This document shows positions 57,620 through 62,722 of a stretch of DNA of 62,722 nt, piece by piece. This stretch comes from Acidobacteriota bacterium (lineage in GTDB: Bacteria > Acidobacteriota > Terriglobia > Versatilivoradales > Versatilivoraceae): contig JAJDUG010000038.1 in assembly GCA_022826755.1 (NCBI GenBank), positions 1 to 62,722 on the forward strand. The letters run 5' to 3'. Made by a program: the position numbers and the translations under genes. Positions within the stretch are counted from its first letter, which is position 1. The number at the start of each line of letters is the position of its first letter. Below the pieces are notes generated by a model. It was not told the DNA's origin and did no database searches. It saw nothing but the letters and a program-made list of their open reading frames with translations.

Positions 57620-60600
57620 TTGGTCTCTTTCACTCCACCTGGCACGAGTTCCCGCGCCAGAACTGTTCTCGCCCTCGCCTGGCTCCTTGCCCTGCCTTGG
57701 ATCTTGCCAACCGTCGCCCGCGGGCAAGGCATCTGCGACCGCACGCCGCAGGTGCGGGACAAGCTGATCGAGCTCACGGGGGCATCAGCTTGCGGGGAGG
57801 TCACCAGTGCGCAACTTGCCGGCATAAGAGAACTGGAACTCTCTGGAGGATCTGTCCGAGAGTTTGTTTGGGAGGTTGGACAATCTGCGAGCCTTGTGGC
57901 TGTTCGACAACCCTCTGAAAGACCTTCCCGAGGGCATCCTGGACGATGTGCTCGATACCCTGGGAGGGGAATACAATGTCGCTTCCGGAACCATCCTGCT
58001 GGGCGGCAATCCAAACGCCGGGCAAGTGCCCTATCGTGGCGATCTGTCCGTTGATTCCGACCTGAAGGCCAAACTTGCTTTTGCCTCGACCGAAACCGAG
58101 GCGCGGGAGGGCGCCAGTGTAAGGGTGCCCGTCACCTTGAGCCGGGAGCTTCCGGTGGCGGTGCGGGTGCCCTATACAGTGGGCTTCGGCGAGGCCACGG
58201 GTGGGTACACCAACCTCTCGCCTGCACCTGACAGCGGACTTCTCTTCCCGGCCGGCGAGACCGAGGGCGAAATTTCCCTCACCCTGTCGCAGGACGCCGC
58301 CGCCCAGGGAGAAAGACACCTGGTGCTGACCCTAGGGAAGCCTGCCGAGATCCGGCTGCGCCGCTCCGAGGGCCAGCCCCCTGACGCTCCCCACTTGCAG
58401 AGCGAGAGTCTCGTCCTGCGGTCCGAGGACCAGGCCGTCCACACCATGACCGTTTCCGACGTCGATCCGGCAGAGCAGGCCCCCTTCTGCCTCTCGCTGT
58501 GGGAGGGCTCGCCCTGCTCCACGGTGGCCATCCTGCCTCATCTCTTCATGGGGCCCCTGGGCGAGCATACGGCCAGAACTGAAGTGGCCATCACCCACAG
58601 GGACCCCGAGGCGGCTCATTGCGAGGTAGCAGTGTTGTTTCACCGAGGCACCTCCCCGGGCTCGGCCGGATCCCAGGACGGCCTGCCCAATCTGAGACCC
58701 GTTCGCCCTGACGGCTGGTCCGACAGCCTGGTGGTCTCCAACCGGCAAGAGACACACACCGACAACCTGCGCCTGATGGCTTACGACCGGCTTTTTGTGG
58801 ACTTCGCCGTCATCAACAGCGTCGGCTCCCCGGCCGCGGCATCGTTCCGGATCGAGCTCTTCCTGAACGGCCGCTTGAGGGAGACCTTCGACGTGTCCTC
58901 TCCCCTGGACCCTCAGGTCTATCGATTTCGCGAGGACTATCCCCTTGGAAGATTGAGCAGCGGCACCCATACGCTGCGCGTCGTCGTCGACGGGGGAGAA
59001 GCGGTTCCGGAAAGCGACGAATCGGACAACCAGTACACCAAGACCTTTTTCGTCAGCGGAGCCTGCTTTCCTTTGACCACCAGGGTTTCGCCACGGGGCG
59101 CCGGGACGGTGATCCCCGGCCGGGAGCCCAACTGCGGCAGCGCCACCCTCGGCGTCAGAACCCCGGGTGCCGACGACCGGGAATCCAACCGGGAACTGGG
59201 CATGGGAGGAGAGCCGGTCCTGAAGGCTCGGCGGGACAGGGCCTTTGACGCTCTGAGGGCCAAGGTCCGGGCGGAAGGCAAGGCCAGGGTGATCGTGGGA
59301 TTGAGGACCGACGGTCAATCGGTGTCGGCGGCGGTCAGCAGCCTCAATGAGGCCCAAGCCCGCTCCCCGCTGATTTCCCGAGTCCAGCAATCGCTGTTGA
59401 CCCGCATGGGCAGCTACAGCCTTTCGTCGGTTCGGCGGTTCAAGTACATGCCCCACCTGGCCATGGAGGTGGACGGGCCCGCCTTGGAGGCTCTGGCCTC
59501 CGACCCGGAGGTGATCACCCTGGAGGAGGACGTCAGGGTCGAGCCTTCGCTGGGGACCAGCACCGCCCTGGTCGGGGCGCCCAATGCCTGGAGTCAAGGC
59601 TATTCCGGAGCGGGCCAGGCGGTGGCCATCCTGGATACGGGGGTGGACGGGGAACATCCTTTTCTGAAGGACAGGGTGGTGTCGGAGGCCTGCTATTCCG
59701 GCGGCGGCGAGGGCTCTGCGCCGCTTTGCCCCGGAGGCGTCAGGGAGGCAATCGGCATGGAGTCGGGAGAGCCCTGCTCCTCGGCGAGCGATTGCTTCCA
59801 CGGCACGGCCGTAGCCGGGGTTGCCGCCGGGGCAGGGACGACCTTTTCGGGGGTCGCCCCCGATTCCGGGATCGTTGCCATAAAGGTGTTTTCCCGGTGC
59901 CGGGGCCCGGTCGACTGCCTGACGTCAACCACCAGTGATTGGGTCGCCGGCCTGGAGCGGGTCCTGGAGCTGAGCGGCGGCTACGACATCGCGGCCGTCA
60001 ACATGAGCTTCGGTGGCGGTCTCTCTTCCGAAGAATGCGACTCCGTTTTCCCCGCGGTGAAGGCCGCCATGGACAATTTGCGGACCTTCGGCATCGCGCC
60101 GGTTGCCTCTTCAGGGAACAACCACTCCTCGACCGGAATCCAGTTCCCCTCCTGCATCTCCAGCGTCATCAGCGTGGGCTCCACCGACACCGGCGCCGAT
60201 GAAACGATTCAGGATGAGGTCTCCGTCTTCTCCAACAACTCTCCCTTGGTGGACCTGCTGGCACCCGGCGGGGGAATCAACACCTCGGTTCCCGGCGACG
60301 GTTTCGCTCGCTTCGATGGAACCTCCCTTGCCGTTCCTCACGTCGCCGGCGCCTGGGCGGTGCGCAAGTCGAAAGCTCCCAACGCTTCGGTTCCGGACCT
60401 GCTTTCCGCCTTGAAAAGCACCGGGGTACCCGTTCTCGATCCCCGGAACAATCTCATCAAGCCTCGAATCCAGGTGGATGCCGCCCTCGACAAGATCGTC
60501 AGGGAACTCCCCTACTCCACCGGCACCCGCATGACGCTGACCGCCCGCCCCAATCCCGGCTTCCGCTTCACGGGCTGGCAGGGGTGCGATTCGCCTTCCG

Positions 60601-60902
60601 GGAATGGCTGTGTGGTCGAGATGGACTCGAGCAGGCAGGTGGTGGCTCTCTTTGAACCGACGTCGGCAGCCCACCCCGATCTGGTCCCCACGTCGCTGGT
60701 GACTCCTCCCATCGCCGAAACCGGTCGCCCGGTCTCGATTTACGCGGCCGTCAGCAATCCGGGCCCGGTGGACGCCGGTCCCTTCCGGATCGGGTTCTAT
60801 CTGTCTGTCGACGACGTCATTACCACCGACGACGCACCGTCAAGGACCTGGGGACCGTGGAGCTGGGCCCCGGAGAGTTCCACCAGTTTTCGCAGGTGCT
60901 GA
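57620..60902 (+). pseudogene. Secreted multidomain protein: LRR, Calx-beta, CARDB, subtilase inside an InlB-type repeat (frame-broken)
   Basis: From TTG 57620 a signal peptide (TVLALAWLLALPWILPTVARG) leads into an LRR cap, QGICDRTPQVRDKLIELTGA, LAGIRELEL. Near 57840 the frame changes; the LRR goes on as SLFGRLDNLRALWLFDNPLK. Then follow a Calx-beta domain (to about 58400), an unassigned part, a CARDB domain (58760-59060), and half of an InlB-type repeat (RVSPRGAGTVIPGREPNCG). An I9-type propeptide and a subtilase come next, with triad Asp at 59634, His at 59799 and Ser at 60324 (GTSLAVPHVAG). The other InlB half (TGTRMTLTARPNPGFRFTGW) and a second, cut-off CARDB follow. The catalytic domain is intact; the export signal is disconnected as sequenced. 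Confidence 0.78.
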
Positions 60903-61807
60903 AGACCTTGGCCAACGGCTACGTCAGGGTGGAGCGGGTCGACCGGAGGGCCCCCTTCTATGCCTACGGCGTCATCAACGACCAGGCCAACTCCGACGGG
61001 TCCTTCGTCTTTCCGGTCGCGGCCGGCTCGCTGGAGGGCAGCCTGCGCCATACCCTGCCGGTGATCGTCGAGATCAACGAGTTCTCCAGCGAGTTGACGG
61101 CAGCCAACTTCTCCGAGGAGGAGAAGACCCTCCACTTCGACTTCGTTGCCGAGGGGCTCACCACTGCCGACCGCACCGCCCGCTTCCGCCTGAGGCTGGA
61201 ACCCGGCCGGCAGCGGATCATTCCCGACGTCATCGACACGGAAATGCGCCGAAAGGGCATCGAGGGCGTGCCCGCGGGGAGGGGCGGGCTGGCCGGGGCC
61301 CTGTTTGCCAGAGTGGAGAGCGGCGACATGAACGGGATCGTGATCGGGGCCCGCACCAGCTCCTCGGACGGCCGCGGCGGTCAGTACGGGGTCTTCTACA
61401 ACGCCGTGCCCGACGGGGCGGCCTTTACCGGCAGCGTCTGGATCGACGCCCTGCAGCAGAACCAGGAAAACCGCAGCAACCTGGCCCTGGTCAATACCGG
61501 TGAAGTCGACGACAGCCCCAGCCTCTTCGAGATCGACATCTACGACGGGGCGGCCGGCATGCTGGTCGAGACCGTCACCATGGACAATGTCGGGCCCGCA
61601 GATGCCGGAGGCCTCAGGCTGGCGGCTAGGCGCTGGCATCAGTTCAACGGCATCCTGAGCAAGTACGCCCGAGGAACCACGCAGGGCTACGTTCGCGTCC
61701 GCCGGATTTCCGGCAACAACCCCTTTCTGGCCTACGGGGTGGTCAACGACGGCGGGGCCCCGGGGCAGCGCAGCGGCGACGGGGCTTATGTTCCGGCGCG
61801 GCGGTAG
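60857..61807 (+). CDS. C-terminal beta-rich domains of the same secreted protein, in another frame
   Basis: A 316-residue frame containing two related parts: GYVRVERVDRRAPFYAYGVI with a NSDGSFVFPV segment, and GYVRVRRISGNNPFLAYGVV with GDGAYVPARR. In secreted proteins of this type the sequence GPGEFHQFSQVL is preceded by more of the same chain, and in-frame codons before 60857 (TVKDLGTVE) also look genuine. There is no signal peptide. It is therefore probably the C-terminus of the upstream subtilase, separated by a frame change or deletion near 60835. The family is unnamed. Confidence 0.6.
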   Translation: MELGPGEFHQFSQVLKTLANGYVRVERVDRRAPFYAYGVINDQANSDGSFVFPVAAGSLEGSLRHTLPVIVEINEFSSELTAANFSEEEKTLHFDFVAEGLTTADRTARFRLRLEPGRQRIIPDVIDTEMRRKGIEGVPAGRGGLAGALFARVESGDMNGIVIGARTSSSDGRGGQYGVFYNAVPDGAAFTGSVWIDALQQNQENRSNLALVNTGEVDDSPSLFEIDIYDGAAGMLVETVTMDNVGPADAGGLRLAARRWHQFNGILSKYARGTTQGYVRVRRISGNNPFLAYGVVNDGGAPGQRSGDGAYVPARR

Positions 61808-61893
61808 GATCGGGGCCAAGATTCTTCCCGGGTTCCCAGGACAGTCTCAGCCCCTTACCCTTCAGGATCAGAAGCGTCGTGCGGTTTATTTAC

Positions 61894-61920
61894 TTGACGA
61901 AACTACCGCATGATATAGAT
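61894..61920 (+). promoter_or_regulatory. Possible promoter of the last gene
   Basis: TTGACG (61894-61899) precedes the A+T-rich tgatatagat in a G+C-rich region, but spacing to TATAGA is only 14 bp. Weak support. Confidence 0.3.
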
Positions 61921-61982
61921 TTATAGCCCCTCATCACAAAATTGTCACAGGCAAAGCTCGAAAGGAACTGGGAGCAACTGTC

Positions 61983-62722
61983 ATGAAATCCAGAACGCTG
62001 ATGATTGTCTTGGGCTGCGCCATTCTGTTGGTCGCCCTCTTTGCCGAAGTGCGCCCCGCCTCGGCCCAGGAAGGGCCGGCTGTCACGGCCCGGGATGTGG
62101 TGGACCGGGATACCCTGAAAGCCTTCGTCCAGGGAGCGATTGCATGGTTGGGAGCGCAATTCGAGAGTGGAGAGGCCGTGGACATTGAAGCCCTGAAGAC
62201 GGTTTTCAGGATGGAACCGGGTCCCTGGAAGCACGGGTCCACCTACTTCGTTGTGCTGGTTAACAACCGTCAAAGTGACGATTTCATTTTAGTATTCTTC
62301 GACGCAGGCAATGAGGACCGTGATTCCAAGTTCGTCGGGGTGCTCCAAGACGCCAATGTGGCAAAGGTCATGAAAGATCTGGCCGCTGCGGCAGTCGAGA
62401 ATGCACCCGAAGGAGGCTTTGTCGAGTATGAAGAGGCAGGCATGAGCAGAATCAGCTACGCTCAGCTCGTCGTAGCGCCGGCGAACGCGGGAAGTATCGC
62501 AAATGCCGAACTGGTCATCAGCGCCGGTTTCAATCCGGGAGATGCTTCAACTCCGCCCGACGCCATGACGACCATGACGACCTTCGTCCCGGTGGTGCTG
62601 GACTCGACGGGGAAGAACAACTCCCACTTCACCTCGGAGCTGGCCCTGACCAACCGGGGTTCCGATGCGGCCATGCTCAACTTCACCTACACGGCCGAAG
62701 CCGGCGGGCCTGAAATGCCCGC
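61983..62722 (+). CDS. Secreted hypothetical protein, cut by the window edge
   Basis: An open frame of at least 246 codons runs from ATG 61983 to the end of the window without a stop. It has a signal peptide (IVLGCAILLVALFAEVRPASAQ), a domain with ARDVVDRDTLKAFVQGAIAW and YFVVLVNNRQSDDFILVFFD, and a start of the beta segment FVPVVLDSTGKNNSHFTSEL. That last motif belongs to the same class of secreted beta domains as those in the preceding gene. The first domain is reminiscent of the Cache-like domain. Function unknown. Confidence 0.75.
   Translation, partial: MKSRTLMIVLGCAILLVALFAEVRPASAQEGPAVTARDVVDRDTLKAFVQGAIAWLGAQFESGEAVDIEALKTVFRMEPGPWKHGSTYFVVLVNNRQSDDFILVFFDAGNEDRDSKFVGVLQDANVAKVMKDLAAAAVENAPEGGFVEYEEAGMSRISYAQLVVAPANAGSIANAELVISAGFNPGDASTPPDAMTTMTTFVPVVLDSTGKNNSHFTSELALTNRGSDAAMLNFTYTAEAGGPEMP

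Follow-up and report, generated by a model that had tools for sequence, protein, structure and literature searches.

A subtilase nested in an InlB-like repeat, a conserved architecture in a small group of Acidobacteriota

The window is the whole stretch of DNA that was analysed, 62,722 nt of an Acidobacteriota bacterium (assembly GCA_022826755.1, contig JAJDUG010000038.1; genome G000 here). Its forward strand carries an open reading frame in which a pro-subtilase lies between two pieces that resemble parts of an InlB B-repeat, with CARDB domains outside them. The features, in window coordinates, are as follows.

57864-60902, + strand: open reading frame that holds the nested protease; it is open from 57828 and codes for 1012 aa when started at a TTG.
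57620-58650, + strand: remains of an upstream signal-peptide/LRR/Calx-beta gene, with a frame break near 57816-57843 and an in-frame fusion to the protease gene near 58651-58668.
58651-58668, + strand: putative deletion junction, at which the upstream gene lacks its end and the protease gene its start and signal peptide.
58683-59042, + strand: CARDB domain 1, whose C-terminal end is complete; Pfam matches CARDB 22-101/101 at aa 311-393 with a score well over the cut-off.
59061-59138, + strand: N-half of the InlB B-repeat, ACFPLTTRVSPRGAGTVIPGREPNCG, Flg_new_2 positions ~2-18, with invariant Cys at 59064 and 59133.
59139-59225, + strand: variable linker of 29 residues, 27-33 aa across the family, in which mean identity is 0.24 and no position is invariant.
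59226-59549, + strand: subtilisin propeptide with I9-like fold (AlphaFold model aligned with pro-subtilisin E, 3whi_A).
59550-60476, + strand: Peptidase S8 catalytic domain (D 59634, H 59799, oxyanion N 60117, S 60324).
60477-60512, + strand: short linker of 12 residues to the C-half (11-14 aa across the family).
60513-60656, + strand: C-half of the same InlB repeat, YSTGTRMTLTARPNPGFRFTGW...QVVALFE, also given as YSTGTRMTLTARPNPGFRFTGWQGCDSPSGNGCVVEMDSSRQVVALFE, Flg_new_2 positions 19-71.
60666-60833, + strand: CARDB domain 2, truncated by a deletion or frame break at ~60830-60835; its complete counterpart is aa 707-816 in relative L033.
60834-61807, + strand: C-terminal region of the ancestral gene, resuming in another frame after a deletion of ~0.73 kb.

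The 458 codons (1374 bp) between ACFPLTTRVSPRGAGTVIPGREPNCG and YSTGTRMTLTARPNPGFRFTGW hold the propeptide and the S8 domain, and the invariant Cys pair of the C-half is C920/C928 of the open frame. In intact relatives the order of parts is signal peptide, CARDB, InlB N-half, propeptide, S8, InlB C-half, CARDB and C-terminal domains; hydrophobic, signal-like N-termini were judged by eye in L033, L005 and L002.

The syntenic locus of a reference genome (G003 contig C53) has an intact 1395-aa LRR/Calx-beta gene (L131:5271-9458) and, after it, a nested-protease gene of 1321 aa that is also intact. Relative to it the window is missing ~2.5, 0.72 and 0.73 kb at 57816-57843, 58651-58668 and 60830-60835, respectively. 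The ~0.72 kb loss (L131 8834-9557) fuses the upstream gene in frame to CARDB and removes the protease start, and the ~0.73 kb loss shifts the frame within CARDB 2, so that the C-terminus is frameshifted. Judged by this comparison, the window's open frame arose from two ancestral genes by fusion and truncation. The missing ~0.72 kb piece was not found elsewhere in the genome, except as a 67% match, and a search of the assembly for the deleted pieces gave only partial paralogues, with the longer matches at ~67-74%. Short similarity at the deletion junctions fits real deletions and assembly errors alike. Because the signal peptide is lost and the frame is shifted, the window copy is probably non-functional, unless the deletions are assembly errors. 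Its nested core (both halves, propeptide and S8) is intact and in frame.

The S8 domain matches Peptidase_S8 (PF00082) over positions 1-272 of 288 at 115.7 bits, exceeding the gathering score. The catalytic tetrad is intact in the window copy, and proteolytic activity is predicted. Across the family the oxyanion N and catalytic S are found in 16/16 members and the D and H in 15; the exception, L055 (G002 contig C350), has an internal in-frame deletion that takes out the catalytic Asp and His, a sign either that deletions are frequent in these genes or that the assembly is at fault. No Pfam I9 match was found at E<=10 in the whole open frame or in the excised stretch. AlphaFold gives the propeptide a helix/strand pattern at model residues 81-162, N-terminal of S8. 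Model residues 79-483 align with unprocessed pro-subtilisin E (3whi_A) at Z 41.8 and rmsd 2.2 Å over 337 residues, the model also aligns to 2zwp_B, and these alignments begin at model residue 77-79. The propeptide is called I9-like by fold only, since the Pfam I9 model has no match. A preliminary description had read the region as an I9 propeptide and a complete S8 protease in ~1.37 kb between the two halves of one repeat. The complete protease with all four catalytic residues, the spacing and the reading frame were borne out, and so were the positions, apart from the first half, which begins slightly earlier and takes in the conserved Cys at 59064; the I9 label stands by fold (AlphaFold and the pro-subtilisin E alignment) but not by Pfam.

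When the whole open frame is compared with Pfam, the repeat family Flg_new_2 (PF18998; gathering cut-off 23.6 bits) is matched over positions 19-71 of 73 only, at 30.1 bits. The repeat is not contiguous in the window copy: positions 2-18 sit 458 residues upstream of 19-71, and such a single-domain annotation hides nested architectures. Taken by itself (38 aa), the N-half falls below the Pfam reporting threshold. Joining the halves by script extends the match to positions 2-71 and raises the window's score from 36.0 to 43.1 bits, above the gathering score. The same operation on three relatives took the scores from 43.6 to 48.0, 46.6 to 53.9 and 45.9 to 56.5 bits (gains of 4.4, 7.3 and 10.6), such that the joined sequence outscored the C-half alone in all four members tested.

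Since picking the N-half piece by eye had to be avoided, a profile was built from the N-terminal part of 31 contiguous repeats and scanned against every 28-column segment of the family alignment. The 12 top segments of 356 all overlap the N-half site (best score 17.7, E 2e-4), and the best score away from that site is 12.2. A simpler joining scan with single sequences ranked the predicted N-half first in 11/16 members, the profile version being the clearer. When a profile of the joined halves is compared with contiguous repeats, 71 columns align at E 7e-20. Matches to the contiguous-repeat model begin at position 27-30 for the C-half of every member and at 1-8 for most contiguous repeats. From these comparisons, residues encoded at 59061-59138 and 60513-60656 are very probably one divergent InlB B-repeat in two pieces, its first third and its last two thirds.

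Searching with the joined-halves profile found contiguous repeats in other Acidobacteriota, which give a view of the site without a protease. One in G437 reads DCYALTILIDPPNSGAVTPKQAPDCG-TK-YTAGAVVVLKASP, with two residues where the window has 458, and one in G557 reads CYTLATAVSPAGVGSVTVGTAQSCT-GG-YTPGTAVSLTANP, again with two residues at the protease site. In other contiguous repeats the same loop is a variable CxxxC loop or is nearly absent, so an insertion there would be tolerated. In the window's own genome a PF18998 search found no contiguous InlB repeat; the sole two matches are the C-halves of its two nested proteases.

The N-half is 26 aa long in 16/16 members, with a mean pairwise identity of 0.56 and four invariant residues, two of them Cys. 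Mean pairwise identity is 0.63 in S8 and in the C-half and 0.24 in the linker that follows the N-half. Among close orthologues dN/dS is 0.05-0.11 for the N-half (26 codons, so approximate) versus 0.23-0.36 for propeptide plus S8, and by this measure the N-half is under strong purifying selection. Each half has one invariant Cys pair, and the start-Cys/loop-Cys pattern of the N-half is that of the contiguous acidobacterial repeats. Nearly all of 80 contiguous repeats have their cysteines in pairs, each pair confined to either the N-terminal or the C-terminal region. This pattern favours disulfide bonds within a half over bonds that would bridge the inserted protease. A disulfide tying the N-half to the C-half was set aside on the same grounds.

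AlphaFold was run with two kinds of alignment. With only protease homologues in it (run 1), the propeptide-protease unit and the C-half were confident, and the N-half, covered by two sequences, had pLDDT 23-29. With contiguous repeats in it (run 2), the N-half rose to pLDDT 52-67, with one strand at 21-25, and the protease collapsed because its homologues were absent from the alignment. The C-half had pLDDT mostly 75-93 in both runs. MAFFT put the N-strands of the repeats on the N-half unaided, but only with protease homologues left out, and the CxxxC loop of the repeats was dispersed over protease columns as well; its placement is compatible with the identity of the N-half and is not independent evidence for it. 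No PDB structure related by sequence to the InlB repeat was found. Going by the AlphaFold runs, joint folding of the halves is plausible, and on our assessment the N-half and C-half quite likely do fold together.

The checks proposed with the preliminary description concerned structure prediction, relatives in which the repeat lacks the protease, and the chance that each half is a domain of its own or that the halves are never contiguous. The joining gain, the segment scan and the contiguous relatives agree that the two pieces are halves of one InlB B-repeat; the halves are contiguous in G437 and G557; and the N-half, 26 residues in every member, is separate from the complete CARDB and matches InlB positions 2-18. 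Structure prediction is the equivocal part, with one N-half strand in run 2 as slight support and an unmodelled N-half in run 1.

The nested arrangement was found in 16 proteins, from six of the seven species of the genus (five besides the window's own), from another genus of the same family (G008) and from another family (G033). A second nested locus, at 57% identity, lies in the window's own genome (contig C34). The arrangement is missing from G001, a member of the genus whose genome is a single contig, and at least one acidobacterial carrier is an uncultured metagenome bin. A protease nested in an InlB-like repeat is a real, conserved architecture in a small group of Acidobacteriota. It is rare in the class (8/399 genomes at E<=1e-40), and the phylum has many protease relatives that lack the N-half (46/396 genomes at E<=1e-25, the window's own genome counted). 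Such relatives often run from signal peptide straight into propeptide, and their C-terminal domains vary.

The window's family contributes 14 nested proteins, which group as one clade of the tree with support 100/98. The placement of L010 (G033 contig C80), the member from the other family, is not fixed by the tree, and one or two origins of the nested architecture are possible. L010 ends in an S-layer homology domain, the only one among nested members, and has no CARDB by Pfam. Its domain content suggests that the propeptide-S8-in-InlB unit either moved between stalk types or arose twice, and its S-layer homology domain may link nested proteases to the cell surface.

Our explanation, which we consider likely, is a nested discontinuous domain: a complete pro-subtilase in the variable loop of one InlB B-repeat, which would tether the protease at both ends. 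A different history could leave similar pieces, if an ancestral InlB-protease-InlB tandem lost the C-terminal part of its upstream repeat and the N-terminal part of its downstream one; two partial repeats would then remain and their joint folding would be optional. Such reciprocal loss is possible in that complete repeats directly follow S8 in L035 (three repeats) and L119 (one). It would, however, have to produce complementary remnants that abut exactly (positions 2-18 and 19-71) and are both kept in 16/16 members, and strong purifying selection on the N-half is unexpected for a useless remnant. No intermediate with two complete repeats occurs among the genomes searched. We rate this history as improbable, and even as a route it would have the present state remain a nested domain.

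Less probable again is that the N-half is a CARDB or linker element whose InlB likeness is due to chance, and that the C-half is a lone truncated repeat. Such a reading draws on the weakness of the N-half alone, which is under the Pfam reporting threshold and unmodelled in AlphaFold run 1. CARDB domain 1, however, is already complete (position 101 of 101) 18 residues ahead of the N-half, and L010 keeps the N-half where Pfam reports no CARDB; the scan of 356 segments selects the N-half site, which also has the cysteine pattern of contiguous acidobacterial repeats. As for an assembly or binning artefact that placed a protease in a repeat protein, the three deletions in the window copy relative to its relatives could raise that suspicion, but the nested region is in frame and intact and the same nesting recurs in separate genomes of several species (including G008 and G033) and at the second locus on contig C34. 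An artefactual origin of the nesting was rejected on this recurrence, its probability being negligible.

How the nested domain might work can be proposed from its anatomy. In subtilases the propeptide aids folding and is then cleaved off autocatalytically. As in other members of the group, the multidomain protein would be exported, and the nested protease may be displayed at the surface. One small beta domain would be formed by the N-half and the C-half, each probably closed by a Cys pair of its own, and this domain would anchor the two ends of the protease unit to a multidomain stalk. Folding of the enzyme would be chaperoned by the propeptide, which would then be removed autocatalytically. 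Because that cut falls between the halves, the InlB domain would keep the stalk-propeptide piece attached to the enzyme piece although no peptide bond would join them any longer; until a further cut, the propeptide would stay close to the active site and the enzyme would remain on the CARDB stalk.

Whether the split InlB domain acts as a tether after propeptide cleavage is a tentative matter; the anatomy makes it possible and we would put it as somewhat doubtful. A role for the nested InlB domain in protease latency could follow the same lines. In its strongest form, which we think rather unlikely, the split repeat would be a non-covalent lock, with the propeptide staying tethered and the enzyme released or activated only when the domain is opened or cut. 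As a guess, the nested proteases may act on host or matrix proteins. If the halves do fold together after cleavage, they would be a natural split-domain tether controlling a protease, a design that protein engineers could borrow.

When one domain is inserted into another, it is usually a small domain that interrupts an enzyme. Insertion is known as a kind, and a complete pro-protease inside a small repeat domain is the reverse, with a zymogen placed in an adhesive-type repeat against the usual direction. The open-access literature searched gave no account of an InlB repeat with a protease nested inside it. With secreted subtilases (PF00082; pro-subtilisin E 3WHI, Tk-subtilisin) the nested proteins have in common the propeptide and the catalytic fold with its D/H/N/S residues, but in those enzymes the propeptide-protease unit is N-terminal after the signal peptide, and here it lies between InlB halves with CARDB outside. 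PF18998 repeats share with the joined halves the match over positions 2-71 and the paired cysteines; their loop is short and variable, whereas the same loop in the nested family holds 458-484 residues. A mixture of these parts is seen in L035 (Alphaproteobacteria), with three complete InlB repeats directly after S8, and L119 (Acidobacteriota, G662), with one: the propeptide-S8 unit is related and the repeat family is the same, but the repeats are complete, C-terminal and not nested. In some subtilases (fungal class I/pyrolysins and the C5a peptidase type) a PA domain is inserted into the S8 protease (PMC2717940), which puts an accessory domain inside the protease, whereas here the whole protease is inside the accessory domain.

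Downstream of the nested core, at 60834-62720, a repeated module (SFVPVVLS..G..NSFFTSELTLTNRG-like) occurs both in the C-terminal part of this gene and in the next open reading frame (at 61983), and paralogues of this module at ~67-74% are found elsewhere in the same genome.
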